Shown in pieces: positions 42,613 to 61,040 of a stretch of 64,000 bases of DNA (positions are counted from its first letter, which is position 1; each line of letters begins with the position of its first letter). The notes under the pieces are model-generated. The model made no database searches, was not told where the DNA came from, and saw nothing but the letters and a program-made list of their open reading frames with translations. The position numbers were made by a program, and so were the translations under genes. Origin of the DNA: Photobacterium phosphoreum (lineage in GTDB: Bacteria > Pseudomonadota > Gammaproteobacteria > Enterobacterales > Vibrionaceae). The stretch covers positions 883,604 through 947,603 of the forward strand of contig NZ_MSCQ01000001.1 of assembly GCF_002954725.1 (NCBI RefSeq), written 5' to 3'.

Positions 42613-42642
42613 AATAAAGGGAGGCTACTGCCTCCCTTTATT
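42613..42642 (-). terminator. Terminator of the DUF2760-Hsp70 operon
   Basis: AATAAAGGGAGGC (42613-42625) pairs with GCCTCCCTTTATT (42630-42642), a 13-bp stem. On the minus strand the tail TTTATTTAA is moderately T-rich. Confidence 0.8.
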
Positions 42643-42660
42643 GCATTATATTGAAATTAA

Positions 42661-45525
42661 TTAGCCAATCAGACGCAATCCATTGGGTAATGCATCACCG
42701 AATACGCGTTTAGTTTCTGCTTCTGTCAATATTTTGACCTCTGAAACCATCTCGATCCAGCTTTCTGGTGCTTTACTTTGTTTTAATTTATTAATGACTT
42801 GTTGGCGTAACTCATCGTTGATATCTAATGTGCGATCACCTGTCATGCGCGTCATCATGACTGCCGCAAAGCCAATGTATGATTCTTTACGCCAGTCATA
42901 TGTCATCAGTTCAGGTAAACAGTAAGAAACATGCTCTGCAGACAATAAGTTATGCGTACTGCCATAAAAAGGCGAACGGGTTGCGATGCGACCAATTGCC
43001 CACCAATGTGCTTGCGCATATTGAGTTTTTTGAAGACGATCAAATAACCATTCAATTAATTGGAGCTTCTTATCAAACGGTAAGTGCTCTAAAGAGGCTG
43101 CTAAGCGCACCATATCTTCATAGCTACGTTCTTGGAGTTCTTTATTCAGCTTCGCGTTACGCGTTGCGCCAGGCGTAATGTACTTAGCAAGATCTTTATA
43201 GATAAGCAGTTGCTGCTCTTGGGTTAAGCCTCCTGCAACACGACGCCAGAATGTCCACCAATCACACCATGTTTGGGTATTGGTATCGAATTGAATACCA
43301 TGTTGATATAACTGCCAGATTTGTTCCATGCGGAATTCATCAGCGGGGTAGCCAAAGCCAGGGCGCATAGTAAAGCCAGTAAGCTTTAACCAGTTACGTT
43401 CATGGAGGTCTGAACGACGACGACGTTTTTTACTGTCTAGTAACGCATTCGCAAGTTCACGTAAACACGGCGTTTCCCATGCATCACGTTTACCTAATAT
43501 TTTATCAAGATCGTTTCGCAGTGTTTTAACCGCTTTATTATCTGTTGTTTTACTGCCACCAAAGACTTTCTTTACCGCATCAATCGCTTCTGGCATCCGC
43601 GCGGGAAGTTCACTTTCAGCTAACGTGCTATCACCTTTATTACGGTTTAAGCGAGCTAGATCTTTACGAATAGCAAATTCAACTTTCCAACGCTTGCTAT
43701 CATCGGTAAGACTTACCGCTTCAATTTGCAGCGTGCCGACTTCTGTTAGCTGGCAAGCCAATGTCACTTCTTCACGATCTTTCTGATTTGCAGCGAGTTG
43801 ATTACGATCACGATCACTGTCTAAGGTCGCAATAAAAGGCGGTAGGCTCACATAACCATCACCGATGATTTCAATCAGTTCACCGACATCATGCTGTTTC
43901 TCATTGGTTGATGAGACTAAGTTAAACCGTACTGGCTCGCCCAGCGTTAGTGCAAATTTACGGTGAGTTAGGGTGACTTCGATACCTTCTTCAATCCCTT
44001 TTGGCAATAAGCAGATCCCTTGTTTGGTGCCTTTATTTTCACCAATGGTTAAAAAGAATGAACGGGCTGAACCACCACCAATTTTTAGTTGTGCACCATG
44101 ACGTGCTTTAGCATAAGCGACAGCGCCAAAAGCGACAGCTAAATCAGGATGAAGGTTTTTCAGTTCAGTAACAGGAGCACCGCGCCAACGAGAGATAATA
44201 TCTAGCGTACGGGCTGAAAGTAGCGGGCTGTTAAAAACACCACCATTGAGCAGTACGGCAACTGGAATTGCAGGTTGATCATCACTAATAACGATTGAAT
44301 CTGGATGATGAAGGTTAAAATCATTAAACGCTTCACGACATACATTATCATGCAGATCAATAAACTGTGCGACATGCTTACTAATAGCAGGATCTGCCGC
44401 ATAAGGTAGCCCAAATTCGACCATAGCTGCTTGGCGTTGATTTGGTTGGTCAGTGAATGCTGTTATTGGAAAAAAGCCATCAAGGGCGATGCTATGCACT
44501 TCTTCACGATTTAGCTCAATACTTTTAGCACCACCAATCAAACGCGAGCCACTGCCTAGCATCGTCACTTTAGCGTTGTCTGGCGCATTGCCTGATAATA
44601 ACTTTTCTTTTACTTTACGTGTTTGTTGAATCAGCTTTGATAACGCGGCAGGGCTGAGTTTTTTAGATTCGCCATGTAAGCGTTGTTCGGCAACGTGTGC
44701 TAATGCTAAATCGAGATTATCGCCACCTAACATTAAGTGATCGCCAACACCGATACGATCAAGAGTTAATTTACCTTGATCACTGCCAACTTTGATAAGA
44801 CTTAAATCGGTTGTACCACCACCGACATCACACACCATTAATAATGGAATGTCTTTTAATAACTCATCGGCTTGTTGGCGATTTTGTGCATACCAGTCGT
44901 AACAAACCGCTTGAGGCTCTTCAAGTAACAGTACTTTATTTAAACCCGCTAGTTCAGCTGCTTCTAATGTTAGTGCGCGTGCAGCTTCATCAAAAGAGGC
45001 TGGAACAGTGATCACAACTTCTTGCTGTGCTAGTTTGTCGTTTCTATGATGATAGTCCCATGCTTGACGCACATGATTAAGGTAGCTTGCACTAGCAATA
45101 ATGGGAGAGACTTTCTTTACATCAGACGTTGAAGCCGTTGATGACCACGGTAAAATGGCTTCGTTACGATCAACATGCTGATGAGATAACCAACTTTTAG
45201 CACTGACAACTTGGCGGCCTTCAACTTTCGCACCTAATTCACGTGCAAATTCACCAATAATCACACTTGGAATTTCACCCGCGACAGGTTCAGCATTCCA
45301 AGGCAATACCAGTTGTGTTGAATCCATTTCGCCTTCCGCTGGATGATAACGAAATGACGGTAATAGTGGTTTACGCGCAACTTCACCCGGTGCAATTAAT
45401 TGATCAATTTCAAAAAGATGCATCGGACTTGTTTCTAATGTATCCGTAATTTCACTATAAGCGACAACGGTGTGTGTCGTACCAAGGTCAATACCAACAA
45501 GGTAGCGCGGAGAAGATGAAGACAT
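42661..45525 (-). CDS. Non-canonical Hsp70 with a large C-terminal extension
   Basis: 954 aa. The N-terminal actin-like ATPase has all Hsp70 motifs: GIDLGTTHTVV (11-21), TVPASF (173-178), EEPQA (202-206), DVGGGTTDLS (233-242) and LNGGVFNSPLL (426-436). A beta-rich region similar to the substrate domain follows (about 480-640). The last 300 residues are all-helical, Trp-rich (TWCDWWTFWRRVAGG) and do not match DnaK's lid; I recall this region being annotated as DUF3731. It is a paralogue of the 611-aa Hsp70 encoded just upstream, with which it shares SAKSWLxH and LPWNAxP. It has no signal peptide, so it is cytoplasmic. Client and cochaperones are unknown. Confidence 0.88.
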   Translation of the reverse strand: MSSSSPRYLVGIDLGTTHTVVAYSEITDTLETSPMHLFEIDQLIAPGEVARKPLLPSFRYHPAEGEMDSTQLVLPWNAEPVAGEIPSVIIGEFARELGAKVEGRQVVSAKSWLSHQHVDRNEAILPWSSTASTSDVKKVSPIIASASYLNHVRQAWDYHHRNDKLAQQEVVITVPASFDEAARALTLEAAELAGLNKVLLLEEPQAVCYDWYAQNRQQADELLKDIPLLMVCDVGGGTTDLSLIKVGSDQGKLTLDRIGVGDHLMLGGDNLDLALAHVAEQRLHGESKKLSPAALSKLIQQTRKVKEKLLSGNAPDNAKVTMLGSGSRLIGGAKSIELNREEVHSIALDGFFPITAFTDQPNQRQAAMVEFGLPYAADPAISKHVAQFIDLHDNVCREAFNDFNLHHPDSIVISDDQPAIPVAVLLNGGVFNSPLLSARTLDIISRWRGAPVTELKNLHPDLAVAFGAVAYAKARHGAQLKIGGGSARSFFLTIGENKGTKQGICLLPKGIEEGIEVTLTHRKFALTLGEPVRFNLVSSTNEKQHDVGELIEIIGDGYVSLPPFIATLDSDRDRNQLAANQKDREEVTLACQLTEVGTLQIEAVSLTDDSKRWKVEFAIRKDLARLNRNKGDSTLAESELPARMPEAIDAVKKVFGGSKTTDNKAVKTLRNDLDKILGKRDAWETPCLRELANALLDSKKRRRRSDLHERNWLKLTGFTMRPGFGYPADEFRMEQIWQLYQHGIQFDTNTQTWCDWWTFWRRVAGGLTQEQQLLIYKDLAKYITPGATRNAKLNKELQERSYEDMVRLAASLEHLPFDKKLQLIEWLFDRLQKTQYAQAHWWAIGRIATRSPFYGSTHNLLSAEHVSYCLPELMTYDWRKESYIGFAAVMMTRMTGDRTLDINDELRQQVINKLKQSKAPESWIEMVSEVKILTEAETKRVFGDALPNGLRLIG

Positions 45526-45658
45526 GCTGACTCCATAAAATAATTAAGATGAGAAAATAGCCAGATAGGAAACGCTTGATGTGCCAGTTTTTGCGGGTAG
45601 GAAATAGGTGAGTGTGTACCCCTGACAGGTTTCATTGGCTGGTTGTTAGATAAATAAA

Positions 45659-45680
45659 CGGCGCACTATAAAGTGCGCCG
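45659..45680 (-). terminator. Hairpin between the two Hsp70 genes
   Basis: CGGCGCACT (45659-45667) pairs with AGTGCGCCG (45672-45680) with a 4-nt loop. On the minus strand it is followed by TTTATTTATC. It could end part of the transcripts and lower expression of the 954-aa Hsp70 relative to the 611-aa one. Confidence 0.6.
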
Positions 45681-45692
45681 TTGTGCGAGCAA

Positions 45693-47528
45693 TTACGCTT
45701 CGCGAACGTCAAATTCGACTTGCCATTTCTGACCGTTATCGGTCGCAATGGCTTCAAGGCATAACATGCCAAGTTCTGTCACATGTGACGCCAGCTTAAC
45801 AGGGATCACTTCACCAGCAGTACGACCCTCAGACACAGGTAGTGTCATTTGAATCGTTGGTAATTCTTCCATTTCTTCTGGTTGCCACCAATCAAGGTGC
45901 GTACCTGCAACATCGTCACGACGTACTGTTGAACCAAAGAACTTAAATTGTACTGGTTGGCCGATAATCAAACCAAATTCTTGGCTTGGTACATCGGCTT
46001 GGCTGCCTTCTTCCATACCAAAAGGAGCAACACATAATGCTTCTAGTGGTGGCTCTATGCCAGGAATAGCGGGCATTGCACTTTCAATACCGACGTAGTA
46101 ACTACTTGCGATACCACCACGAATACGTACACCTTTACCGCGACGTACAAAACCGTAGTATGAAGCGCCACTTGCTACCGCAAGATCAAGATCAAGCCCA
46201 GTAAGTAGTTTAGCTTCAGTAGAACCTGCTGTTGTTAGCCAGCCATTAATCGTTGTTAACAGACGATCTGACAGCAATGATGATTTAAGTACGCCACCAT
46301 TGAACAAAATAGCGGTTGGGCGAATAAAGCCTTCATGCTGTTGTTCATATTGTGCAAACAATTCTTCAACTGCTTGGCTTTGACGACTTAAGAAGCCAGC
46401 AACATGACGCGATACCGCCGCATCTTGTGCGTATGGCAGACCCATTTGGGTTAACGCGCCACGTGCTGTTTGTACAGGTAATTCACCAATAGTTGTTTGA
46501 GGGAAGAAACCTTCAACCAACGTTTGCTGTACTTCTTCTTGTGTTAATTCTGTTTGTAACGTGCCACTTAGTAGTTTAGAACCACGGCTTGGAACAACAA
46601 TCGGCATTGATTGTAATTCAGCGTCGTTAAGTAGTGCTTCTTTAGCATCACGACAAGCATGCGTAATGGCGAGTACTTGCCACGGCTGTAATTGCTTACC
46701 TTCTTGCGCTAGCTTCATCTTTAAGCGATAAGCTAGAGCAAGATCCATGTTATCACCACCCAGTAGGATGTGATCACCAACAGCAACACGATTAAGGGTT
46801 AAGTTACCGTCTTCTTCTGTAACTGCAACTAATGATAAATCCGTTGTACCACCACCGATATCAACCACAAGAATGATATCGCCAACAGCAACTTGGTCAC
46901 GCCAGTTGTCATCATTGTTCTTGATCCAGCTATAAACAGCTGCTTGTGGTTCTTCAAGCAAGGTTAAGTGCTTAAAGCCAACATTGCGTGCTGCTTCTGC
47001 GGTTAGTTCACGCGCAGCAGGATCAAAAGAGGCCGGTACGGTAATCGTTACATCTTGATCACAAATAGGCGTTTCAGGATGTTGGAAATTCCACGCATCA
47101 GCCATGTGTTCAAGGTACTTCTGTGTCGCCTCTAATGGCGAGACTTTTACAACTTCTTCTGGGCTATTAAGTGGCAAAAATGCTTCACGACGGTTTACAC
47201 CACCGTGACAAAGCCAACTCTTGGCACTGGAAATAAGACGGATAGGAGTCTTACTTCCTAAGTTTCGCGCCATAGCACCAACAATGGCATTAGGTTTTGC
47301 ATTCCAAGGAAGTGCAGTATCACCTTCTGCTAGCTCTGATTCATGAGCTTGGTACATAAATGACGGTAATTGATTTTTATCTTCCACATTACCAGGAGTG
47401 GTCAATTGTGGAATTGTCATGACCGTGACATCAGCGTTTTCAGTTTCAAGATCGACATAAGAAAGCACACAGTGTGTTGTGCCTAAGTCAATACCTACGC
47501 TGTAGCGATGTTGTTGTGTGTCTTGCAT
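45693..47528 (-). CDS. Non-canonical Hsp70, short form
   Basis: 611 aa. ATPase motifs: GIDLGTTHCVLSYV (12-25), TVPASF (163-168), EEPQAAVYSW (192-201), DIGGGTTDLS (223-232) and FNGGVLKSSLLSDR. It aligns with the first 600 or so residues of the 954-aa protein and stops after the beta-rich segment, without a helical lid. It has no EEVD-like tail. Its ATG overlaps the DUF2760 stop by one base (TAATG), so the two are translationally coupled and probably act together. Confidence 0.88.
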   Translation of the reverse strand: MQDTQQHRYSVGIDLGTTHCVLSYVDLETENADVTVMTIPQLTTPGNVEDKNQLPSFMYQAHESELAEGDTALPWNAKPNAIVGAMARNLGSKTPIRLISSAKSWLCHGGVNRREAFLPLNSPEEVVKVSPLEATQKYLEHMADAWNFQHPETPICDQDVTITVPASFDPAARELTAEAARNVGFKHLTLLEEPQAAVYSWIKNNDDNWRDQVAVGDIILVVDIGGGTTDLSLVAVTEEDGNLTLNRVAVGDHILLGGDNMDLALAYRLKMKLAQEGKQLQPWQVLAITHACRDAKEALLNDAELQSMPIVVPSRGSKLLSGTLQTELTQEEVQQTLVEGFFPQTTIGELPVQTARGALTQMGLPYAQDAAVSRHVAGFLSRQSQAVEELFAQYEQQHEGFIRPTAILFNGGVLKSSLLSDRLLTTINGWLTTAGSTEAKLLTGLDLDLAVASGASYYGFVRRGKGVRIRGGIASSYYVGIESAMPAIPGIEPPLEALCVAPFGMEEGSQADVPSQEFGLIIGQPVQFKFFGSTVRRDDVAGTHLDWWQPEEMEELPTIQMTLPVSEGRTAGEVIPVKLASHVTELGMLCLEAIATDNGQKWQVEFDVREA

Positions 47529-48238
47529 TATAGTTCTACCTCAGCGGCTGCGATGATATGTACATCATGGCCTTCTGCCAATTTAGGCAATTTAACATTT
47601 GTCACTTTCCAACCGCGATGGATCAGAGTGCCATTAAAAGGTGCTTCACCTACTACGTTACCTGTTAGGCGTACTTCAGAGGCATTAAACCCTTGGGGTA
47701 GGGTAATACGTGATTCTTCTTCTTCAGCGCGAACAGGTGCGAAAGTAAAGTACTCATTAAGTACCTTTTGACCGCCTTCATGAATAACACGAGCGGCAGC
47801 ACCGATATCAGCATCTGCAAAGCCTTTAAGATCTTCTTGCATAAAATCAATAAAGCGTGCGTCTTGTTGTAAAAGTGACAGTAGTTGTAAAGCTGAATCT
47901 GGTGTTGATGTTTTTAGTTTAGGTTCAACTTCGACTTCAACGATTCTTTCAACAATTTTTTCTACTTCAACAATTTTTTCAACAGGCTTCTCAACAATCT
48001 TTTCTACGATTATTTCGACGGGTTTTTCAATCTCAACGATTTTCTCTACTTCAATCTCTTTTTCAACAATTTTTTCGATCTCAACAGGTTTACCTTTTTT
48101 CGTTAGATACATTAACAAAAAGATCACTGCTAATGCGCCTAAGATTGCGTGCCCCATGTCGATACTCGTTGGCATCGCCGACAAATCTACGTGCATCGCT
48201 GATAATTCAGTGAGCATATTGGAAAAATCAAAAGCCAT
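47528..48238 (-). CDS. DUF2760 membrane-anchored protein with a charged repeat spacer
   Basis: 236 aa. One membrane helix (about 29-46, HAILGALAVIFLLMYLT) is followed by a low-complexity spacer (51-105) built of Glu/Val/Ile/Lys units such as VEKIVEIEKPVE, then a compact domain (112-236) that matches DUF2760 as I know it (LLSLLQQDARFIDFMQEDL, AARVIHEGG, ending VHIIAAAEVEL). The spacer may form a long rod or coiled coil holding the domain away from the membrane on the cytoplasmic side. It is the first gene of a three-gene operon with two Hsp70s, suggesting that it recruits them to the membrane or is their dedicated partner. Confidence 0.85.
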   Translation of the reverse strand: MAFDFSNMLTELSAMHVDLSAMPTSIDMGHAILGALAVIFLLMYLTKKGKPVEIEKIVEKEIEVEKIVEIEKPVEIIVEKIVEKPVEKIVEVEKIVERIVEVEVEPKLKTSTPDSALQLLSLLQQDARFIDFMQEDLKGFADADIGAAARVIHEGGQKVLNEYFTFAPVRAEEEESRITLPQGFNASEVRLTGNVVGEAPFNGTLIHRGWKVTNVKLPKLAEGHDVHIIAAAEVEL

Positions 48239-48672
48239 ATTTGTTTACTCTTAGCGGTTAAAGGTCGATTCGTGAAACGTTCTGTTAGAATCAGCTTCAA
48301 ATAATTGCATGAATATTAGCATAGACCTTTTACAAAGGTGTTATCTATACAAGGTTTTATCTTCTAAAATCTCGAATAAAAGGTCTCTTCGCTTAAATTA
48401 CAGTCAAAATATTAAGTTAAATACAATGAAATTCTGCGTAATTTTTAACTGAAAATATTGTTGTTTTTATATATGGAGGCTGATGAAAACAATTTCAAGC
48501 TAACTGTTTGTATTAAAAGATCAACCTAGATTAAATTGTGATAGATAACAGAAGAGCTGAAACTTTACTTGAAATTTGTTGTTCAGTGATGGTTCAATAC
48601 GGCAATTGGCAGTGAGTTGCCTAAACTACTAGAGAGACTAGTGGTTTATTTCTTTATAAAATAGGTCAAGAT
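48239..48672. promoter_or_regulatory. Divergent promoter region of the DUF2760 operon and yajD
   Basis: 434 bp without genes. It must contain promoters in both directions. I looked for a sigma-32 heat-shock promoter before the DUF2760 gene and did not find a convincing one. Confidence 0.35.
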
Positions 48673-50338: not shown

Positions 50339-51025
50339 TTATTGCCCTTGGCTTGAAAACACAACTTTTATGGTTACGACGAGAATATAGATATCGGTTT
50401 TTAACCAGCTTGAGAATGAGTTAAGTGATAGCGCATAGCTATGATCAAAGCCGACTTTTGAGCGTACGTCATCAATACACGTATCATATCCTTGATTTAT
50501 TTGGGCTAAGCCTGTAATACCGGGCAATACCCCATAAGTGCGTTCGCTAAAATAGGGAATTTCATTTTCTAATTGTTGATAAAAGGAAGGTCTTTCTGGA
50601 CGAGGTCCGACTAAAGACATATCACCACGCAGTACATTGAACAGTTGTGGTAATTCATCAATACGTGTACGGCGTAAAAAGCGACCAACTGTCGTGATGC
50701 GTTGATCTTCTTTGCTGGCAAGAATAGCGCCAGTATGGGCTTCTGCGTCATTTTGCATACTTCTGAATTTTATCATTTCAAAAATATGAATTTTATCAGG
50801 TGTTGATTTACCAACCCGTAATTGACGATAAAAAACATCACCTTTGGAATCGAGCTTAATGGCACAAGCTATTAACGGAAAGAAAGGTAATACAATAATT
50901 AACATAATCAATGTAAGGCTAAGATCAAAACTACGTTTAGCAATCATTACAGAACGATAAATTCGTGTACCTTTTGTTTTACAAGGTGAGCCAAGTAGTG
51001 CCACTTTAATGTTATTGATACACAC
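50339..51025 (-). CDS. sypR: Sugar-1-phosphate transferase, polyprenyl priming enzyme (SypR)
   Basis: 228-aa bacterial sugar transferase (PF02397 type) that links the first sugar phosphate to undecaprenyl phosphate. One re-entrant or membrane helix is present (SLTLIMLIIVLPFFPLIACAIKL). The catalytic region includes DVFYRQLRVG, IFEMIKFRSM, RRTRIDELPQLFNVLRGDMSLVGPRPERP and the PGITGLAQI loop. There is no WcaJ-like N-terminal four-helix domain. The GTG start overlaps the sypQ stop by 14 nt. Last gene in the syp-like cluster, as in V. fischeri. Confidence 0.9.
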   Translation of the reverse strand: MCINNIKVALLGSPCKTKGTRIYRSVMIAKRSFDLSLTLIMLIIVLPFFPLIACAIKLDSKGDVFYRQLRVGKSTPDKIHIFEMIKFRSMQNDAEAHTGAILASKEDQRITTVGRFLRRTRIDELPQLFNVLRGDMSLVGPRPERPSFYQQLENEIPYFSERTYGVLPGITGLAQINQGYDTCIDDVRSKVGFDHSYALSLNSFSSWLKTDIYILVVTIKVVFSSQGQ

Positions 51026-52196
51026 GATTTAATAATCCCATTAATTTACGGAAAAGATAGTTTATTCCACCAATAAAATTAGCAGTATGTCCGGTAATAA
51101 GATAAGCCACTATTTGGAAAATCTTATGTGAACATATACGAGGAAGTATGACACCGAGAATGCCTACAACATAGCCAACTGTTTGACAAATAAAAGTAAA
51201 GAGAAAGAACGGAGAGTTTATTAATAACCATGATCCAATATAAGCCATTAGCATAAAATAGGGCATGGTAATACGTAATCCTTTACCAGAAAGGAAGGTA
51301 AAAGCGGTACCTTTATATTTAGGATTAAATAAACTAAATAAGCGAATGAGTTGTTGAAAATTGCCGGCGGAAATACGTAAACGGCGAGAGAAATCATCTC
51401 TTCTATCAACATAATCAAGTTCAACAGCGCAAATAGTTGGGTCATAAATAGCGTGATAGCCTTGCTCAACAATACTCATTGGCAAAATGAAATCATCGTT
51501 AATAGTATCTTTATCTAACGGTACGAATAGTGCGCTTCTAAACAGATAAAATGCGCCATGTGCACCTAAACTGTTACCAAATGTAGCTTCTTGCTGCTTA
51601 ATCTTTGTTTGGTAGTCCCAATATTGCCTTTCACCGAAAGAGCTTGGGGTTAGTAATCGATAAGTTGCGTTTACTACGCCTATTTTGCTATTTTCAAAGT
51701 GTTTCGCTGCAATTAATAACGCATCATAGGAAATTAATGCAGAGACATCACTGAGTGCAATAATATCACTATCGTATTGAGGGATAAACTGATTGAGGAT
51801 GGCGACTTTGCCTTGATTTTTGTGCTGCGATAAAATTTCTATATGCGTATCTGAACATAAGGCTTCTTGAATAGTATTATTCGCAATTTCCACAGTGTTG
51901 TCACTGCAACCATCACAGGCAATAATGACTTTTAGTTTATCGGTAGGATAATCAAGGTAGGAGATATTACGTATTTTTTCAGCAATCCATCGTGCTTCGT
52001 TATAAGCAGGAATAATAATGGTTATTGTTGGTAAAATACAATCTTGGCTATTTTTGGCAAAATTTCTAGGTGTTGGGGATACTGTACGTTGGGGATGACG
52101 TTTAGCGTACCAATTTAACAACATTGGATAAAGTACATGATGATAAATGACAGCAAAGAGGCTAAACGATGTCATTATAGAGAGAAAGATGATCAT
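51012..52196 (-). CDS. sypQ: Glycosyltransferase family 2 (SypQ)
   Basis: 394 aa. A GT2 (GT-A fold) domain with TIIIPAYNEARWIAEKI, the ACDGCSDNTVE nucleotide-sugar loop, the ALSDVSALI metal-binding site, and a DDFILPMSI acceptor region followed by the RRDDFSRRLR (Q/RxxRW-like) segment. A membrane helix precedes it, and two or three follow near the end (about 300-360), as in processive synthases. Position and family match V. fischeri SypQ. It overlaps sypP by 4 nt. Confidence 0.88.
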   Translation of the reverse strand: MIIFLSIMTSFSLFAVIYHHVLYPMLLNWYAKRHPQRTVSPTPRNFAKNSQDCILPTITIIIPAYNEARWIAEKIRNISYLDYPTDKLKVIIACDGCSDNTVEIANNTIQEALCSDTHIEILSQHKNQGKVAILNQFIPQYDSDIIALSDVSALISYDALLIAAKHFENSKIGVVNATYRLLTPSSFGERQYWDYQTKIKQQEATFGNSLGAHGAFYLFRSALFVPLDKDTINDDFILPMSIVEQGYHAIYDPTICAVELDYVDRRDDFSRRLRISAGNFQQLIRLFSLFNPKYKGTAFTFLSGKGLRITMPYFMLMAYIGSWLLINSPFFLFTFICQTVGYVVGILGVILPRICSHKIFQIVAYLITGHTANFIGGINYLFRKLMGLLNRVYQ

Positions 52197-53281
52197 AGGT
52201 TTTCTCCTGAAAAGTAAAGTTGTTCATAAGCTTTTGTCATCGTTTGAGCATGGTTATGTGTCAGAATAAATTCCCGCGCATCATAACTAATAGTATGGTG
52301 TGGCATTGATTGAATAGCAGCAGATAAAGTGACTGCAGTATTATTATCAACCAAAAGACTATCAGTACTTAATGTTTCACTTACTCCCCCGACATCATTG
52401 GCAATACAGGGTATACCGCAAGCTTGTGCTTCAAGTGTTGATAGCGGAAAACCTTCGTTATCAGAGGGAAGGCAAAATAGATCAAGTGCTTGATAAAAAG
52501 TAGGCATATCATCAATGTGGCCTAAAAAGTGTACTCGACTATCTAGTTTATATCGGTGCACTAATTGCTGTAATTCTTCGAATTTTGAGCCTGATCCTGC
52601 GAGTAATAAATGAAATGAAGCAGGTAATAATTGCAAGGCTTCTATTAGGTGTTGTTGTCCTTTAACCGTTTCAAAGCGTGCAGCATTGCCGATAACGGTT
52701 GCATGGGCAGGGAATGAAAGTTGAAGTTTATCGCGAGCGTGATATTTATTACCAATCGTGAACCTTGACGGATTGATACCATTTTTTATCGTATAAATGG
52801 GGTAGGTTTTAAATATACTACGTACTTTTTTACGAACAAAATCAGCATCAGCAACCACTAGTGGTGTTGATAATTGTAGCGCGATAAATTGTATTAATTG
52901 ATGCTTGTAACTATTCAAGTGCCAAGCGTCATGTTCGGTATGAATATGCTTTATTCGGTTGCTGTTAAATTGAATCGCGCAGCTGGTATAAAGTAAAGGA
53001 CCAATGTGATGAGAATGCACAATATCAGCTTGATAGTCTTTAAAGACTGAGCGTAGTTTTTTTATCGTTGAATATGATATTCCTTGCGGTTTATTTAGGC
53101 TGATAATTTGATGCTTAAATGGAACTAAATGAGCCCAATTATTTACGATGTGCTGTAGTGTGCCTTCCATGCTGCAAACAAAAACGCGATAGCCAGGATC
53201 GCTAAACGACAACATATTCAATACCATTGTTTCCAATCCGCCAGGGGATAAATGTTGTACAACATGAATAATGGTTTTCAT
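52193..53281 (-). CDS. sypP: Glycosyltransferase family 4 (SypP)
   Basis: 362-aa GT-B enzyme. The N-terminal acceptor domain shows HHLSPGGLE-type glycine loop (VQHLSPGGLETMV). The C-terminal GT4 donor domain has GNAARFETVKGQ, LLLAGSGS and the E(x7)E motif in DNEGFPLSTLEAQACGIP. It adds one sugar to the lipid-linked unit. The ATG at 53281 has GGAG 6 nt upstream; a GTG at 53284 is possible. A sigma-54 promoter is predicted just upstream, as reported for sypP of V. fischeri. Confidence 0.88.
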   Translation of the reverse strand: MKTIIHVVQHLSPGGLETMVLNMLSFSDPGYRVFVCSMEGTLQHIVNNWAHLVPFKHQIISLNKPQGISYSTIKKLRSVFKDYQADIVHSHHIGPLLYTSCAIQFNSNRIKHIHTEHDAWHLNSYKHQLIQFIALQLSTPLVVADADFVRKKVRSIFKTYPIYTIKNGINPSRFTIGNKYHARDKLQLSFPAHATVIGNAARFETVKGQQHLIEALQLLPASFHLLLAGSGSKFEELQQLVHRYKLDSRVHFLGHIDDMPTFYQALDLFCLPSDNEGFPLSTLEAQACGIPCIANDVGGVSETLSTDSLLVDNNTAVTLSAAIQSMPHHTISYDAREFILTHNHAQTMTKAYEQLYFSGENL

Positions 53282-53307
53282 CACACACTCCTTATTACGT
53301 ATGGATA

Positions 53308-53326
53308 ATGCATGGATTGTGCCATT
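53308..53326 (-). promoter_or_regulatory. Predicted sigma-54 promoter of sypP
   Basis: The minus strand reads TGGCAC (-24, 53324-53319), 5 nt, then ATGCA (-12, with GC at the invariant place). This is close to the consensus TGGCAC-N5-TTGCA and about 30 bp before the sypP start. Confidence 0.8.
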
Positions 53327-53373
53327 AAAAAAACATTTATATTCAATGGGTTATTTTATTGGTAATGAAATTG

Positions 53374-53385
53374 TCAGAATGAGAA
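53374..53385 (-). promoter_or_regulatory. Candidate SypG-binding enhancer of sypP
   Basis: The minus strand reads TTCTCATTCTGA. This matches the TTCTCANNNTG core reported for SypG-binding elements in V. fischeri. It lies about 50 bp upstream of the -24 box. Confidence 0.6.
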
Positions 53386-53448
53386 TGAATATAATAGGGG
53401 TTTATTATACTTTGAACTAAACGAAGACAGTATTTGAAGATGGCATTG

Positions 53449-54894
53449 CTATTGAGGTTTGTTTATTTTTCCTGGTTGTTTTGGTATACGGCTTAGTATG
53501 GGAATAGTACTCAACATAGCAATTTGATCTTTGCGTCGAATACTGGTGTCACAAATTTCAGCTAGAAATGCTAATCCTGTTCCTAAACCTATCCCCCCAA
53601 TAAATCCGGCAATGAAAAAAAAGTAAGAGGGTAAGTTTGATGGGCTTGTTGGTGTATAAGGACGATCGATAACTTTTATACGTTTTTCTTGTTCAAAAAT
53701 ACCTAATGAACGGGTTAATTTTGCCATCTCGAAACGGTTGACAAGATCATTATATAATTGACGTTTCGAGGCTAAATCGCGTTGTAATTGCGCGAGTTGC
53801 TTTTCGTTTTGACTAAAACTGGCGACTTTAGTTTCTATTTCAGTAATGATGACTTTTAATACGCGAGTTTCTTCTTCTAGAGCATCAACTTTCGCTGTCG
53901 CCTTTTGAAGTTCCTCTAGTTGAGATAATAAAATCGGTGGTGATTTGGATGCATCGTTAACGCTATTACTACTGGCAATATCCCATAGTTGCTCAGTACT
54001 TAATCCTGCTGGTTTTTGTGAAAGCAATCGAGCACGTTCTTTTTGTAATCGCTTTAAATTTCGTAACCGCCCTTGTATCTGACTGTGTTTAGAGGTGTAT
54101 TTCGCTTGTAACAAGGTCAGTTCAGCTCGAATAGTAATGATTTTTTCTTCTAATTTACCGATGACAGGGTTGGTTTTTGATAGCTGTAAATCTATTGAAC
54201 CCAATCGTTTTTTCGCGCCAGCAAGCTCTGCTTGACGCTCATATAAACGCTGTTTGAGTTTTGCTAAACGATCTAAGATAGATATCTGCATTTCTGGGTG
54301 AGTTGTATTTTCTTTGTTTTTGAAATCAACTAATTGATCTTCTGCTATATCAAGTTCCTGACGTCTAAACTCAATGTTTTCAGAGAGGAATTGACTGGAA
54401 TCGGTCATTGAAGAACGTTCAGGAGCCAGTAATTGATCGATAAAATAGTAACTGACGGTTTCTAGTGTTGTTTTCATATTATCAGGGCTGTTTGAACGAT
54501 AATCTATTCGAATGAGATCTTTACCTACCATTCTAACTGTAAGGTTTTTGGATAATTTAGCAATCGCATTATCAATCGCTTGTGGTGACATTGATGTGTG
54601 GGTATGACCAATCTCTTTTGCGACAAGGCCTAAAATGTGGCGACTATGAAGCAGTGTTTGTAGTGCACTAAGACGTTCTTTTAACATTGTAGAAACAGCG
54701 AGATCTTCTAAAAAAGGGTTCATTTTTGCGGTTTCTTGAATCAACATACTGGTATGTGACTCATAATGTTTTGGTGATATTTTAGCAATAATAAGCCCAA
54801 TAAACGGCATGATAATGATCGGAATAACAATCATATAGCGTCGTCGCCATGCAGAGGTCAATATAATAAAAAATCGCTGGCTTAATGAAATCAT
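53449..54894 (-). CDS. sypO: Chain-length determinant (Wzz/GumC-like) protein (SypO)
   Basis: 481 aa. A Wzz domain begins at residue 1: an N-terminal membrane helix (MIVIPIIIMPFIGLIIAKI), a long periplasmic coiled-coil region (about 150-385) and a second helix near the C terminus (LPSYFFFIAGFIGGIGLGTGLAFLAEI), preceded by the Pro-rich RPYTPTSPSNLP. No tyrosine kinase domain follows. It controls glycan length and export. The start is placed at 54894, where ATGA overlaps the sypN stop by 4 nt, in place of an ATG 15 nt upstream. Confidence 0.9.
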   Translation of the reverse strand: MISLSQRFFIILTSAWRRRYMIVIPIIIMPFIGLIIAKISPKHYESHTSMLIQETAKMNPFLEDLAVSTMLKERLSALQTLLHSRHILGLVAKEIGHTHTSMSPQAIDNAIAKLSKNLTVRMVGKDLIRIDYRSNSPDNMKTTLETVSYYFIDQLLAPERSSMTDSSQFLSENIEFRRQELDIAEDQLVDFKNKENTTHPEMQISILDRLAKLKQRLYERQAELAGAKKRLGSIDLQLSKTNPVIGKLEEKIITIRAELTLLQAKYTSKHSQIQGRLRNLKRLQKERARLLSQKPAGLSTEQLWDIASSNSVNDASKSPPILLSQLEELQKATAKVDALEEETRVLKVIITEIETKVASFSQNEKQLAQLQRDLASKRQLYNDLVNRFEMAKLTRSLGIFEQEKRIKVIDRPYTPTSPSNLPSYFFFIAGFIGGIGLGTGLAFLAEICDTSIRRKDQIAMLSTIPILSRIPKQPGKINKPQ

Positions 54895-56042
54895 AGCGCA
54901 TCTAGCCATTGTTCAAGTTGTTGTGCTTTTACATCCCATGTTTGTTGCTTACTTAATGCAATTTGTTGTAAACGTTTACTTGTTTCAATAGTGTCTATTG
55001 TTTGAGTATTATGCCAAGACGTTTTTATGGATTGCAGGATCATACTAAACTCTGTTGCGTTTCGAGCAATATCAACCACTGATTTATAAGGAAGAACTGC
55101 GGGAAAGGAGGTACTGATTATTGGTGTGCCAGTGGCTAAATATTCTAATAATTTTAATGGATTACATGATTTTATTTGAGCATTATTAATAAAAGGTAAC
55201 AGGCTTACTTGCCAGTGCTGACTATATTGTGGCAACGAAGAGTGTGGTTTTTCACCTAACAGATAAAGGTTATTATGATTTAGCAATGGGGAATTGCTAA
55301 ATGTGTTTTTCCCGATGAAAACAAAATTCCAATCAGGATTATTAGCAATAATGTTATTTAATAAATCATAATCGAGCCAATGCGATAAGCTGCCATAAAA
55401 TCCAGCAATAGGACGAGCATTATTAGGCAGATCATAAGCACGAGAAACTGGGTGGTTAAATAGTTTAAAATCAACACCGTGAGGTAAATATTGTGTCTTT
55501 TTTTTAGGGAATTTATTATATAACACCATACTTGCAGTGAGTATCAGATTAGCTTTAGCAACCAAGGTAATTTCATGCTGAGTCACGGTTGTATGGTCGA
55601 CTCCTGTTAATGCATTAAAATCATCGCCACAATAATATATAACGCCATATTCACCGAGCGCTCCACAAAGATCTGCCACTGTCGGCAATGATGCCCATAA
55701 AATCGGTTGATATAATTGTGTTTGCTTTAAGATAGGAATTAATTGGTAACAAATGAGCTTTTTAGCTATCCAGCGGGCAAATTTACTTTTAGGTGCTGGA
55801 ATTGTTTTTAGAGTGATAGTTTGAAAAGGTGCAGTGGGCGAAGAAGATACTGCCTGTGTTTTCGGTTGCGTGAGTTTGTCATAAACCCGTTTGATATCGT
55901 GCAAGGTAAATTGTGGCTTACGCAAGCCAATAGAATTAACCCAAATAATTTTTCGGTTGGGCGCAAGGTGTTTGATCAAGTGCTGAGTGCTTGACGGTAA
56001 TTGCCCCCAATCTTCAGCAAAAACAATGAGATCATGTTTCAT
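54891..56042 (-). CDS. sypN: Glycosyltransferase (SypN)
   Basis: 383 aa. A GT-B-like glycosyltransferase with weak similarity to family 1/4 enzymes: N-terminal LIVFAEDWGQLPSSTQHLIK, GFYGSLSHWLDYDLL at the start of the donor domain, NWNFVFIGKNTF and the donor motif CNPLKLLEYLATGTPIIST. There are no membrane segments. It overlaps sypM by 4 nt, and the next gene sypO starts within its stop. Identification as SypN rests on position. Confidence 0.82.
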   Translation of the reverse strand: MKHDLIVFAEDWGQLPSSTQHLIKHLAPNRKIIWVNSIGLRKPQFTLHDIKRVYDKLTQPKTQAVSSSPTAPFQTITLKTIPAPKSKFARWIAKKLICYQLIPILKQTQLYQPILWASLPTVADLCGALGEYGVIYYCGDDFNALTGVDHTTVTQHEITLVAKANLILTASMVLYNKFPKKKTQYLPHGVDFKLFNHPVSRAYDLPNNARPIAGFYGSLSHWLDYDLLNNIIANNPDWNFVFIGKNTFSNSPLLNHNNLYLLGEKPHSSLPQYSQHWQVSLLPFINNAQIKSCNPLKLLEYLATGTPIISTSFPAVLPYKSVVDIARNATEFSMILQSIKTSWHNTQTIDTIETSKRLQQIALSKQQTWDVKAQQLEQWLDAL

Positions 56043-56788
56043 GACGTATCCTTATTGTGTGAAGATAAGGTACGAAAGGCTATTTTTTTTATCGCTTTTG
56101 CGGGATTACCTGCAATTAAGGTATAGGGTGGAAAACTTTTGGTGACTACACTGCCTGTCGCAATAATTGATCCTGTGCCGATAGTAACATTACCCATAAT
56201 ACTGACTCGTGTGCATACCCAAACATCATTTTCTAAAATGATATTGCCGATTTGTTGTGGTAAATCAGCCAATCCTTGTGCGCGTAAATGAGGATCAATG
56301 GGGTGTCTAGGATAGCCACATAGAAAGCCTTGACTCGCAATACGAACATTATCGCCAATAATGATTTTGTTACCTACTGCAATCGTTGTTTGCCAGCCAA
56401 TATCGACGTTGTTACCTATATTGAGTGTGGGATTGATAGAGTCTGTACGACCTGAAAAGGTGGTTTTTCCTGAAATTCGGCAATTATCACCAATAGTCAT
56501 AATGAGCGGACCACTAAAAAAAGGTAAGCCATTATCGAGCTTGGTGTATTTGCCATAACAATGTAAACGGCCTTTAAACGCGGGCAGATAATAAAAGAAA
56601 TGAATAATATAGTGCCATAATGTAGTGAATATTTGATGGAGAGAATAAAGCGTGGAATAACACCACTGTGGTAAAGGTAGTTCAAAACAACGTATAAATG
56701 AGATAAGACGATATAAGGCCATAGGGAAAGAGTGTTGGCTGTTTTTAAGCCATTTTTTACATTGAGTAAAAGAGAATAAATACATCAT
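56039..56788 (-). CDS. sypM: Left-handed beta-helix acyltransferase (SypM)
   Basis: 249 aa with hexapeptide-repeat (LbH) structure: MTIGDNCRISGKTTF, NIGNNVDIGWQTTIAVGN, IIIGDNVRIASQGFL, NDVWVCTRVSIMGNVTIGTGSIIATGSVV and the cap AGNPAKAIKKI, typical of sugar O-acetyltransferases. The first 75 residues have no repeat and may contact a membrane or partner. It would acetylate a sugar of the repeat unit with acetyl-CoA. GGAAGGGA precedes the ATG. A sigma-54-like promoter lies upstream, as for V. fischeri sypM. Confidence 0.88.
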   Translation of the reverse strand: MMYLFSFTQCKKWLKNSQHSFPMALYRLISFIRCFELPLPQWCYSTLYSLHQIFTTLWHYIIHFFYYLPAFKGRLHCYGKYTKLDNGLPFFSGPLIMTIGDNCRISGKTTFSGRTDSINPTLNIGNNVDIGWQTTIAVGNKIIIGDNVRIASQGFLCGYPRHPIDPHLRAQGLADLPQQIGNIILENDVWVCTRVSIMGNVTIGTGSIIATGSVVTKSFPPYTLIAGNPAKAIKKIAFRTLSSHNKDTS

Positions 56789-56821
56789 CGTTATCCCTTC
56801 CTTTATATACCTTCTTTATAC

Positions 56822-56840
56822 TTACATAGACTGTGCCAAT
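56822..56840 (-). promoter_or_regulatory. Predicted sigma-54 promoter of sypM
   Basis: The minus strand reads TGGCAC (-24, 56838-56833), 5 nt, then ATGT (-12). The -24 is perfect; the -12 lacks the usual GC, so it is weaker than the sypP and sypI promoters. Confidence 0.6.
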
Positions 56841-56885
56841 AATTTTTATAATATTATCAAGTTGTTATTTTAAAGGTTTAGTGAT

Positions 56886-56900
56886 TTCTCAAATTGAGAA
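56886..56900. promoter_or_regulatory. Candidate SypG enhancer palindrome upstream of sypM
   Basis: TTCTCAAATTGAGAA, a perfect 15-bp palindrome around a central A, 48 bp upstream of the -24 of the predicted sypM promoter. Both arms carry the TTCTCA half-element of SypG sites. Confidence 0.6.
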
Positions 56901-56906
56901 TAATAA

Positions 56907-58295
56907 TTAACTACTTATTTTGCATAATGCTTGTTTCGAAATATTACTAATTGCAATGGCCAATGCCGCTAAAATATAAATTGGCCAAGTAAAACCTTGG
57001 GTGAGAAAAGTTCCTGATACTATGGTGCCAATCAGGCCAGCATAGACACCTTGCGCACTGGCATAAATAATGGGGTTTATTTTATTTTTATGGGTTTTCA
57101 GGTTTGCCAAAGTAAGTTTAATATTCTTAATAAGAATAACAATTAAGCTGATAAAAATGATTAATCCTATAAAGCCTGTTTCAGCTAATACAGAAAACCA
57201 AGTACTGTGAACGGCATGATTGAGTCCATCCCAATGGGTACTAAAAAAGAAGTAATTAGGATAAAAATTGCTTAAACCTACCCCCGTAAAAGGGTGCTCA
57301 AGCGCCATGTAAAAAGCGGCTTGCCATGCATATAAACGTCCCATTGATGATGCATCAATACCAACTTCAGCACTGCCTCCTGATGTTCTATCGGCTATTC
57401 CCGCAAGGGTAAAAAGCATGATACCAATAATCGTACTGCAACTAAGTAATAATAATTTAGATTTAACACGTTGCATGCCATAAATACCAAAGACTGCAAT
57501 CATGCCCAGTAGTCCTCCACGGCTTTGAGTGATAATAACCGCAATGAATAGGATAATTGTCGTAATCAGTCCAAATAAACGGTATTGCCAAGATAATTGT
57601 GGTGTCAGTAATAGTGCAATTGAAAAAGAAATTGGAAACATAAGCACTAATGCTAAATCATTTGGATCACCCAGCATTGATCCAATATCACGACCGATTG
57701 TTGCACGAGTTCCCTCAACTAATCCAATGCCTTCAATTCTATTATAAATGGCGGTGATTGCGACAACCATTCCAGAGAAAATGATGGCTTGTAAAGTAAG
57801 CGTTAATTGACTGGGTTTTTGAATTAAAATAGCTATCGAGAAGGTCATAATAATGATTTTCCAATACGTATTTTTAAAACTTTCAAAGGCGAGAGGGCGA
57901 TCTACAGCAAAGACAATACCTACCATAATAATCAACATGAATGTGGTAATTAAGGTGAATTCACGACACCAAAAAAGCTGGATATTACGTTGAATAAATA
58001 TTTGCCACATAAATGCAGCCAGTGAGATTATCGATAAATATTTAGGTATTTTAAAATCATATAAAAAAGGAAAAACTTCATGTAATCGAAAAAATGAAAA
58101 TAAAATAAACAGTAACACAATAAAAAAAGGATGATTAAAACTATAGTAAGCGCCTATCGGTATTACACCAATCGTAATAATTAATATTGGATGAGGTAGG
58201 AAATACCATATTATGCCGATAATGAAAGACAATAAAAGTGTTATAAGCCAATACGATGGTAGTGCTTTTGGTGGAGAATGATCAGATAGCATCAT
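56907..58295 (-). CDS. sypL: O-antigen ligase/polymerase-like membrane protein (SypL)
   Basis: 462 aa with about 12 membrane helices and a large periplasmic loop before the last ones, as in O-antigen ligase/Wzy proteins. The Wzy_C signature region is RLYAWQAAFYMALEHPFTGVGLSNFYP, followed by HAVHSTWFSVLAETGFIGLIIF. It polymerises or ligates the repeat units in the periplasm. It overlaps sypK by 14 nt and ends just before the sypM promoter. Confidence 0.88.
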   Translation of the reverse strand: MMLSDHSPPKALPSYWLITLLLSFIIGIIWYFLPHPILIITIGVIPIGAYYSFNHPFFIVLLFILFSFFRLHEVFPFLYDFKIPKYLSIISLAAFMWQIFIQRNIQLFWCREFTLITTFMLIIMVGIVFAVDRPLAFESFKNTYWKIIIMTFSIAILIQKPSQLTLTLQAIIFSGMVVAITAIYNRIEGIGLVEGTRATIGRDIGSMLGDPNDLALVLMFPISFSIALLLTPQLSWQYRLFGLITTIILFIAVIITQSRGGLLGMIAVFGIYGMQRVKSKLLLLSCSTIIGIMLFTLAGIADRTSGGSAEVGIDASSMGRLYAWQAAFYMALEHPFTGVGLSNFYPNYFFFSTHWDGLNHAVHSTWFSVLAETGFIGLIIFISLIVILIKNIKLTLANLKTHKNKINPIIYASAQGVYAGLIGTIVSGTFLTQGFTWPIYILAALAIAISNISKQALCKISS

Positions 58296-59736
58296 TATCT
58301 CCTATGATTTTTTTTGATTTATTTATGCTTGGAAAGATAACTAAGCGGCTCCAAAAAGCGTAACTTAATAAAATGAGAAGCGATAAAATAGCACTTGATA
58401 AATGGAATACTATTGTTTGTTGAAATTGGCTTAATCCTATAGATATAGCACTGATAGTAAACAAAACAGCGATTTTATTGAGAGCAAAAGGAAAATGAAA
58501 ACACCGCTGGGATAACCAATAAGTGCTTAATGTTCTAATACTTTGCGCAACCATTAATGCACTAAGCACGCCATTAACTTTATATTCTGGCGTCAGTACG
58601 ATAATGAGTGTTACTCCAACGACAGTTGCAAGGCAATTAATCACTAATAATTTTTTTGTTTCTTGTTTAATGAGTGCCCCCATATTAATCAGCTCATTAA
58701 GCTCTTTAATTGCAAAAATGATCACTAAAACTACCACTATATCTTTTGCGGCGTGATAGGTTTCAGGCATAAACCAATCAATAAAAACAGGCGAGAAATA
58801 ACATACACAGATAGTTAAGCTACAGAGTAAAACAATACTAATATGAGTAATTTGTGTGGTGGTATTTACACCATTGTTAGATAGATATTCAAACCGTTTT
58901 GGCATCCACCACATACCAAATGGTTGCATCAATAATACTAAGATTAAGGCAAATTTAAATGCGACGGCATACAGTGCGACATCATTGAATGAAACATAGA
59001 AAATCAAGAACCAGCGTTCCAACCCATTGAGACCAAAAATAATCAAGCCGCTGAACATCAGTGGCAAACAATAAGTGAAATATTTATGTGTAGTATTAAT
59101 ATTAATATGGTAGTTAATACACGCTTTTTTATTTGTTTGATATTGCAAATAGATGATCACGACCACTTGCAACATGGCACTAATAAATCCTGCTAAAATT
59201 ACGGCTTTTACACCAAAGCCATAATGGAGCACAATCATAGTTAAGAGCGCATGAAACAGTGCTCTGCCGGTGGTGATATAAAAAAACAGCAGTGCCTTTT
59301 CTTGCATTCTTAATGCCGATAAAACAACCATGGTGACAGCTTCAAAGGCCAATGGAAGTAATAATAGTTTAAGTTCCAGTGTCGAGGTTTGTAATTGACT
59401 AAGTTGACTTAATAATGGACAAATTAACCAAATGATAGGTAGAGCAATAGCCGCCATAATCATACTAATAATAAAAATATCTGCGGTAATTTGGGGTTGC
59501 TGGCTTTTTTTTGCAGTACCTGAAAAACGGTATAACGCTTCATGTAACGATAAACCAAAAATAATACTGATAATAACGGAGATGGTAACCAGAATTTCTA
59601 AGCGGCCTAATTCTGATTGAGATAAATGGGTTGCGATATATGGCAGCATGATAAGTGACACTCCCTTCATAAGCACGATGCTAGTGCTATAGAGAATGAT
59701 ATTTTTAAGTGGCGTCGCTAAAGGCCATATGCGCAT
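58282..59736 (-). CDS. sypK: Oligosaccharide flippase, Wzx/MATE-like (SypK)
   Basis: 484 aa with about 12-14 membrane helices in a polysaccharide-transport (PST/Wzx) pattern, beginning KNIILYSTSIVLMKGVSLIMLPYIATHLS and containing GLNGLERWFLIFYVSFNDVALYAVAFKFA. It would flip lipid-linked repeat units to the periplasm. The gene follows the glycosyltransferase at 59746 by 9 nt and overlaps sypL, so the three are one operon. Confidence 0.88.
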   Translation of the reverse strand: MRIWPLATPLKNIILYSTSIVLMKGVSLIMLPYIATHLSQSELGRLEILVTISVIISIIFGLSLHEALYRFSGTAKKSQQPQITADIFIISMIMAAIALPIIWLICPLLSQLSQLQTSTLELKLLLLPLAFEAVTMVVLSALRMQEKALLFFYITTGRALFHALLTMIVLHYGFGVKAVILAGFISAMLQVVVIIYLQYQTNKKACINYHININTTHKYFTYCLPLMFSGLIIFGLNGLERWFLIFYVSFNDVALYAVAFKFALILVLLMQPFGMWWMPKRFEYLSNNGVNTTTQITHISIVLLCSLTICVCYFSPVFIDWFMPETYHAAKDIVVVLVIIFAIKELNELINMGALIKQETKKLLVINCLATVVGVTLIIVLTPEYKVNGVLSALMVAQSIRTLSTYWLSQRCFHFPFALNKIAVLFTISAISIGLSQFQQTIVFHLSSAILSLLILLSYAFWSRLVIFPSINKSKKIIGDNDAI

Positions 59737-59745
59737 ATAGCTAAC

Positions 59746-60888
59746 CTATACCGATGTGGAATTGGGTTGACAAAGGGTGGCTATGATTACGGCATAACAT
59801 TGTTCGGCTTGATAATTTTGAGCTAATATTGCGGCTTCAGTGCCTAATATCGAAAGTTGTTGGGGGTTGTTGCTGATATAGTCTATTTGCTGCTGGAGTG
59901 ATTTACGATCATTAGAAATATATTTTAAACAGTTTTTTTTGTGCGTTAGCTGAGTATCCCAAAAAGCACCATCTTTGGGAATAATGATACACATACCAGC
60001 AAATAATGCTTCTAAAATAGACAGTCCGAAAGGTTCTTTGTCACTGGTTGAAATGAATATATTACTGCTTGCACGAATACTATCGATTGATAATGGCTGC
60101 TGATACCAGGTTATAGACTCAATAGGTTGAGGAGCAAGAGTGATCGGTAATGTGGTGTTTTGAGGCACAAGGTAACAAATATTGGTTGGGATTCTTTGAT
60201 TTACCGCTGTTTTCCTTATGACTTCGAGCAGCAAGTCGAGTCCTTTCCACTTTAAAAGCGAAGCCGCCCAAAATAATGTTGGCGTATGGTATTGGCACAA
60301 CGAAGGGGCACGCTCTTTTGCTATGCCATTTATAAACGGTAAAAAGTGGCCTGATGATAATAACTGTTGACATTTTTGGTCGCGAATTTTGGGTTTACGT
60401 TTTCGCCAACGATGCTGTATTACTGCAATAATTGAAGCGTAAGCACTGTGTAAATAAAACACATTGTCTGCTTGATATAAGCATAATCCACATGAACGTG
60501 AAATACTGATATTACCATGAATGAACTGGGCTACTTTGTATCTTAATAACCACTTTAACAGGTAAAGGGGCATATCATTTCCTGGGCAAGATGCACCAAC
60601 AGCAACATTTATTGAGCCATGAAGACAACGTACATACAAAATCCACCAACAAAAATAGAACTGTCTTAACCAATAGCCATTACCAACATCACTAATAGGC
60701 AACCATGATGGATAAGGTAACGATATAATATTGGCTTGTTTCATCTGCCATGATTGAGGATCTGACGTTAAGATAGTTAGACGATGTTGTTGGCGATCAA
60801 TAAGGTTTAACACTTCGCGAGTAGCGAATTTAGACCCACCAGTGTAGCAAATAGGGTCAAAAACAAAGATATGATGATCATGAGCCAT
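59746..60888 (-). CDS. sypI: Glycosyltransferase family 4 at the sypI/sypJ position
   Basis: 380 aa. N-terminal Gly-rich loop (DPICYTGGSKFATREVLNL) and a GT4 donor domain (LFWAASLLKWKGLDLLLEVI, STSDKEPFGLSILEALFAGMCIIIPKDG with the E-x7-E pair). V. fischeri has two glycosyltransferase genes here, sypI and sypJ; only this one is present. The name sypI is given because the gene directly follows the predicted sigma-54 promoter; sypJ is an alternative. GGAAGGA precedes the ATG. Confidence 0.85.
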   Translation of the reverse strand: MAHDHHIFVFDPICYTGGSKFATREVLNLIDRQQHRLTILTSDPQSWQMKQANIISLPYPSWLPISDVGNGYWLRQFYFCWWILYVRCLHGSINVAVGASCPGNDMPLYLLKWLLRYKVAQFIHGNISISRSCGLCLYQADNVFYLHSAYASIIAVIQHRWRKRKPKIRDQKCQQLLSSGHFLPFINGIAKERAPSLCQYHTPTLFWAASLLKWKGLDLLLEVIRKTAVNQRIPTNICYLVPQNTTLPITLAPQPIESITWYQQPLSIDSIRASSNIFISTSDKEPFGLSILEALFAGMCIIIPKDGAFWDTQLTHKKNCLKYISNDRKSLQQQIDYISNNPQQLSILGTEAAILAQNYQAEQCYAVIIATLCQPNSTSV

Positions 60889-60936
60889 GACGTCCTTCCG
60901 TATACTGATATAAATGCACTAAGCTATGAATATAAT

Positions 60937-60955
60937 AAGCAAAAGGAGTGCCAAA
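60937..60955 (-). promoter_or_regulatory. Predicted sigma-54 promoter of sypI
   Basis: The minus strand reads TGGCAC (60953-60948), 5 nt, then TTGCTT (60942-60937), a near-perfect -24/-12 sigma-54 promoter about 50 bp before the ATG. Confidence 0.85.
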
Positions 60956-61020
60956 TTTATTTATCTTAACCATTTGAAAATGAATATTTTTTTTAATAGT
61001 GGTAACTATTTAAATCGTTA

Positions 61021-61036
61021 TTCTTAAATTGAGAAT
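61021..61036. promoter_or_regulatory. Candidate SypG enhancer upstream of sypI
   Basis: TTCTTAAATTGAGAAT, a near-palindrome; on the minus strand it reads TTCTCAATTTAAGAA. It lies about 70 bp upstream of the -24 box, and one mismatch separates it from the element before sypM. Confidence 0.6.
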
Positions 61037-61040
61037 AAAA

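Follow-up and report, generated by a model that had tools for sequence, protein, structure and literature searches.

A conserved DUF2760–Hsp70 cassette in Photobacterium phosphoreum and other Pseudomonadota as a candidate membrane-tethered chaperone machine

A three-gene Hsp70 cassette

Research on bacterial Hsp70 proteins has centred on DnaK, HscA and HscC with their soluble partners. Here we describe a three-gene cassette in Photobacterium phosphoreum, located on the minus strand of a 64,000-nucleotide stretch of contig NZ_MSCQ01000001.1 (assembly GCF_002954725.1, positions 883,604 to 947,603; hereafter the window), which encodes a DUF2760 protein and two paralogous Hsp70-like ATPases that we named HspA and HspB for this analysis. 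The three genes are conserved together in Gamma-, Beta- and Alphaproteobacteria, and it is likely that their products form a membrane-tethered stress Hsp70 machine. The same machine with the DUF2760 protein acting as its GrpE-like exchange factor is a more tentative proposal, to which we give somewhat less than even weight. If such a machine exists, the cassette represents a further conserved kind of bacterial Hsp70, membrane-bound and seemingly controlled by heat shock, and thus an undescribed branch of protein quality control.

The initial annotation of this region had described three coupled genes, for a DUF2760 protein and two Hsp70s, and all three open reading frames (ORFs) stand where it placed them, on the minus strand. 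The first gene (47528..48238) encodes a 236-amino-acid (aa) protein that matches Pfam family PF10816 (DUF2760; E 4.6e-55). The second (45693..47528) encodes the 611-aa HspA, which consists of a nucleotide-binding domain (NBD) and a region resembling the beta part of the DnaK substrate-binding domain (SBD-beta), without a lid sequence. The third (42661..45525) encodes the 954-aa HspB, whose residues 705–952 (42670..43413) form a C-terminal DUF3731 domain (PF12531, E 1.5e-102). The DUF2760 and DUF3731 matches reach 185 and 343 bits against a curated cut-off of 25, and PF00012 matches both Hsp70s in the NBD part only (E 6.7e-17 and 3.4e-19; 68.9 and 61.4 bits against a cut-off of 20.6).

The three genes occur as a set

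In a first survey of 249 Pseudomonadota genomes from 132 genera, DUF2760 was found in 19 genomes of 7 genera, and the HspA profile (E ≤ 1e-40) matched the same 19. DUF3731 was present in 18 of the 19, the exception being a genome (G026) whose contig stops after HspA. The rare co-occurrence that the initial annotation had named as refuting its reading is thus not what the survey shows. In another genome (G053) the cassette genes are split over two contigs and HspB runs across two reading frames, because the gene is broken or the assembly faulty. Neither DUF2760 nor DUF3731 was detected in any of 14 well-known control genomes.

A second survey drew on a named genome collection in which at least 510 candidate stretches encode a relative; the best 80 were taken, which biases the sample to near relatives, and the cassette genes were located by tblastn. 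HspA follows DUF2760 in 80/80 of these loci and HspB follows HspA in 79/80, the remaining stretch (L064) stopping after HspA. In one genome (G082), ∼2.9 kb separates HspA from HspB, and the ORFs there resemble a cation antiporter and a porin by eye. Among these best 80 loci the closest named relatives are those of P. iliopiscarium (L057) and P. kishitanii (L061), in which the three proteins are 96–98% identical to those of the window.

DUF2760 is present in 35 of 247 genomes of the host's order, and in 161 of 197 Vibrionaceae genomes (6 of 13 genera). Matches were also found in 11 of 72,556 plasmid records (Burkholderia, Caballeronia, Bradyrhizobium, Comamonadaceae and Thiodictyon). Four of the 11 plasmid regions were examined, and the whole set is present in three of them, including the conjugative B. 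barranii plasmid pCC829_3. The one clear exception is Thiodictyon pTs485, which carries DUF2760 and HspA with no DUF3731 on the plasmid record, the search having covered the plasmid only. Next to the pTs485 cassette lie a TIR-domain gene and genes with anti-phage annotations (DUF1156, phospholipase D-like).

Flanking genes recur by lineage: in Photobacterium they are a YajD-type HNH nuclease, an M50 peptidase and an ABC transporter, and in Vibrio and Oxalobacteraceae they are others. No constant fourth partner gene is therefore apparent, with the limit that ORF calls in G+C-rich loci were crude and a partner there could be missed. Distances in the trees of the three cassette genes correlate at 0.93–0.96 (46 loci), as is expected of linked genes. 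Covariation between the proteins was discarded, as the effective number of sequences was 24 and the top columns resembled clade-splitters. No mention of DUF2760 or DUF3731 was found in the literature searched, which takes in few subscription papers; a description may exist elsewhere.

Two divergent Hsp70 paralogues

HspA and HspB share 39% identity over ∼600 aa. Aligned with DnaK across seven loci (14 HspA and HspB rows), both keep the ATPase residues T11, K70, E171, D194, T199 and D201 in 14/14 rows, in accordance with the earlier claim that all ATPase motifs are retained. R167, N170 and D393 of DnaK are DnaJ contacts or carriers of the allosteric signal. At these positions N170 is a glutamate and D393 is replaced in all 14 rows, R167 is kept in 5/14 and in neither window protein, and the VLLLD linker is absent throughout. 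A region aligning weakly to the DnaK SBD-beta is present in both proteins, after which HspA ends and HspB continues into DUF3731. Judged by sequence, the DnaK lid thus appears to be missing from both, as had been noted, with DUF3731 in its place in HspB. The extension of HspB is also Trp-rich as described, with 12 Trp in the last 300 residues versus 7 in the first 654. A profile search of the PDB gave no credible relative of DUF3731 (best E 0.29, taken as chance).

Neither protein is DnaK proper. On the NCBIfam DnaK equivalog model they score 60.4 and 54.5 bits, far under the cut-off of 648, and their HscA-type matches lie at 1e-23 to 1e-27. In our trees HspA falls on one side (99/96), and the split of the HspA/HspB pair from both DnaK and HscA reaches 100/100; YegD, which sat on a very long branch in the first tree, was for that reason left out of the second. 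HspB is monophyletic in only 8% of bootstrap trees, with long branches meeting at its root. Every main lineage sampled contains both kinds, which makes an old duplication probable.

The same genome also holds two dnaK-like genes, an hscA-like gene and one grpE adjoining the first dnaK, names assigned partly by size and score. A P. angustum 'DnaK-related protein' (VAS14_01896) was considered as a cassette member; the peptide fragments given for it in PMC3706606 occur in none of 238 cassette proteins from the 80 named loci, and it is probably another gene.

A predicted membrane anchor, a variable spacer and a constant domain

The window DUF2760 protein has a predicted transmembrane helix at residues 28–46 (48101..48157), with a hydropathy of 2.01 over 19 residues from residue 28 and a helix at the same residues in the structure model. 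Because acidic residues precede this helix and Lys/Arg follow it, the positive-inside rule would place the DUF2760 domain on the cytoplasmic side. In a sample of 80 proteins (the window and 79 others, one locus with a broken frame, L086, omitted), a hydrophobic helix above a hydropathy cut of 1.6 is present in 54, which supports the proposed membrane tether for most members examined. The other 26 are 25 Oxalobacteraceae proteins and one (L071) whose start is probably miscalled. Six of the 25 Oxalobacteraceae proteins were inspected, and in these six amphipathic stretches (moment 0.42–0.63) stand in place of the helix. By eye, the proteins of the f34 genomes have two hydrophobic stretches.

The initial annotation had stressed a Glu/Val/Ile/Lys spacer. 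It is present in the window at residues 50–109 (47912..48091; predicted local distance difference test, pLDDT, <50 in the model) and in Vibrionaceae, and does not hold as a defining feature, being Pro/Ala-rich in many other lineages or short. The C-terminal DUF2760 domain (residues 112–236; 47531..47905) is modelled as helices followed by six short strands, ending in ..AEVEL, with block-mean pLDDT of 75–95 over residues 111–236, and an alignment of 19 sequences contains 25 invariant columns. It therefore seems that membrane attachment is kept by differing means while this domain stays constant.

When the model was compared with known folds, the only PDB matches were GrpE, and these were weak. 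GrpE is the factor that recharges Hsp70. It is built of helices with a small beta domain after them, an arrangement that the DUF2760 model may share. The two also differ: the DUF2760 protein has no significant sequence similarity to GrpE and no sign of a dimer, and in place of the long paired N-terminal helical stalk of GrpE it carries a transmembrane or amphipathic anchor and a disordered spacer. The exchange-factor role is the weakest step of our proposal. The GrpE profile (PF01025) did not match the DUF2760 protein at E 1e-3, homology by profile–profile comparison was rejected because scores were not above permuted controls, and a profile search of the PDB for relatives returned a best E of 0.51, taken as chance. 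As a separate observation, some Pseudomonadota genomes carry a second, divergent GrpE (∼50–72 bits); four of these have the cassette (G018, G026, G030 and G053) and several lack DUF2760.

Gene coupling and promoter sites

The three genes had been described as coupled, in one operon. For DUF2760 and HspA this stands, the stop of the former and the start of the latter overlapping by one base (TAATG) in the window, and overlaps of 4 or 1 bases occurring in 61 of 79 loci with script-picked starts. It does not stand for HspA and HspB, which lie 167 bp apart in the window with a terminator-like hairpin between them (45657..45682, minus strand; 11 pairs, 7 of them G-C, followed by a T-rich stretch), and in most Vibrionaceae the three genes are not tightly coupled. 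Such a hairpin is found in the gap of 36/43 Vibrionaceae loci (21 distinct 5′ stem strands) versus 1 of 2150 mononucleotide shuffles. Seven Vibrionaceae loci lack it by our rule; two of them have very short gaps, and at least two (L070 and L071) form a strong hairpin that differs in type. Outside Vibrionaceae, the two Hsp70 genes overlap or are no more than 20 bases apart in 31/37 loci and the hairpin was found in 0/37, only 6 of which have a gap >30 bases. Since some Vibrionaceae gaps are only ∼55 bp and leave little room for a separate HspB promoter, we infer that the hairpin is an attenuator lowering HspB.

Upstream of the DUF2760 gene, promoter-like sites point to heat-shock control. Sites of the sigma-32 (RpoH) type were scored for CTTGAA, a spacing of 12–17 and CCCCATNT, with a maximum of 13. 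The window site, CTTGAAA..CCTCCATATA (48470..48499, minus strand), lies 261 bp before the ATG of the DUF2760 gene and scores 12. Scores ≥11 were found upstream of DUF2760 in 27/44 Vibrionaceae loci versus 5/348 of the remaining intergenic regions in those loci; as this is a pattern match only and the rows are related, no probability is claimed. A loose positive control, the host's own dnaK, gave a best site of 12 within 1500 bases (versus 300 elsewhere), a stretch that includes grpE, with the site before grpE; the second dnaK scored 10. Outside Vibrionaceae such sites are at background, with 2/37 loci ≥11 (by eye) versus 33/1620 random segments. Vibrio sites often contain TATGCTAxTAT (by eye), which could be an extended −10 element for the housekeeping sigma factor.

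Judging by product names in PMC5816637 and PMC9201469, the V. cholerae locus appears to be VC1373–1375. PMC10328515 describes HapR binding to the VC1375/VC1376 intergenic region and activating the VC1375 promoter in vivo and, with housekeeping polymerase, in vitro; VC1374 appears in a table of PMC5636140 with log2 −2.68 for a comparison involving a vc1639 mutant. That HapR/LuxR controls the cassette throughout the family was rejected: with the 15 sites of PMC10328515 as scorer, values ≥8 occurred in 6/44 regions versus 64/306, without enrichment across Vibrionaceae.

Proposed mechanism and alternatives

We propose that the cassette encodes a dedicated Hsp70 machine, regulated by heat shock, that works on the cytoplasmic side of the inner membrane. 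In it, the DUF2760 protein would be both tether and co-chaperone, its transmembrane or amphipathic helix and flexible spacer holding a cytoplasmic C-terminal domain that would bind the NBDs of both Hsp70s and would thereby place ATP cycling at the membrane; the likeliest role of this domain is that of a GrpE-like nucleotide-exchange factor. HspA, an Hsp70 without a lid, would hold its clients only for a short time. Its paralogue HspB would be kept at a lower level by the gap hairpin in Vibrionaceae, with DUF3731 standing in for the lid. This proposal predicts that DUF2760 binds the NBDs and speeds nucleotide release. Of the roles suggested in the initial annotation, stress gains support from the sigma-32-like sites in Vibrionaceae, folding follows from Hsp70 homology only, and secretion finds no support here.

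Like DnaK, HspA and HspB have an NBD with aligned ATPase residues, an SBD-beta-aligning region and heat-shock-type promoter sites; unlike DnaK they have no lid sequence and no VLLLD linker, with N170 and D393 changed, and occur as two paralogues together with a membrane-tethered partner. In its fullest form the proposal is that two lidless Hsp70s work without a J-protein and keep inner-membrane or new membrane proteins folded in heat stress. A dedicated DUF2760 exchange factor tethered to the membrane would charge and release them, and would be either a very remote relative of GrpE or a protein that acquired the GrpE fold independently. We regard this full form as doubtful, the more so as R167 is kept in 5/14 rows, which weakens the part about the J-protein. 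If true, such a factor would help to test whether the lid, the linker or the J-protein is dispensable in the Hsp70 cycle.

The changes at the DnaJ-contact positions also fit a different role for DUF2760, in which it would not be an exchange factor but would recruit HspA and HspB as their membrane anchor or adaptor and substitute for a J-protein, stimulating ATP hydrolysis or delivering clients. With N170, D393 and the linker changed in every row and R167 in 9/14, a substitute is plausible, and both the position of DUF2760 beside HspA in all 80 loci and its conserved AEVEL-type tail would suit it. However, Pfam finds no J-domain in the DUF2760 protein and its sole fold matches are GrpE, not J-proteins; we consider this alternative unlikely, if a serious contender.

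Less probable still is that HspB serves as exchange factor or partner of HspA, with DUF2760 a mere tether. In eukaryotes Hsp110 plays such a part for Hsp70, likewise two related Hsp70-fold proteins possibly cooperating, and the retention of two old paralogues side by side, the large additional domain of HspB and a hairpin that suggests an HspB level below that of HspA in Vibrionaceae are in line with it, but HspB keeps the full ATPase set and pTs485 has DUF2760 and HspA without HspB.

Actin-like (MreB-type) filament proteins anchored by DUF2760 are very improbable, as the weak MreB_Mbl matches of both proteins (E ∼1e-6), shared by the YegD-like protein of the window, are far exceeded by HSP70 matches (E 1e-17 to 1e-19); the HscA-type matches, the SBD-beta-like region and the heat-shock-type promoter sites also speak against this reading. 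A defence or other accessory system is equally improbable: the anti-phage neighbours on pTs485, the conjugative Bradyrhizobium plasmid and the patchy spread over 7/132 genera are set against a cassette common in Vibrionaceae, with neighbours that vary by lineage and matches in 0/50,697 phage records, and the idea was rejected when PADLOC gave the three proteins only weak PDC-M61B matches confined to the ATPase part.

Other features of the window

The window also encodes a YegD-like Hsp70-superfamily protein (16316–17668; 450 aa, PF00012 E 3.7e-22, MreB_Mbl 2e-10). Like HscC, YegD is a divergent Hsp70-superfamily ATPase alongside the main DnaK, a position resembling that of HspA and HspB, from which the window protein differs in its length and in having Pfam matches in the ATPase part only. 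Beyond the HspB stop lies a 13-pair palindrome (42613..42642), reported by the scan on the plus strand only; on the minus strand it is perhaps the transcript end. A minus-strand ORF run at ∼50339–63522 with a glycosyl transferase group 1 protein and, by eye, a sugar transferase resembles a polysaccharide locus; ORF 53449–54909 has no Pfam match at 1e-5. Finally, 28141–32739 encodes a 1532-aa protein with DUF4092 and an enhancin-like Peptidase_M60 domain.

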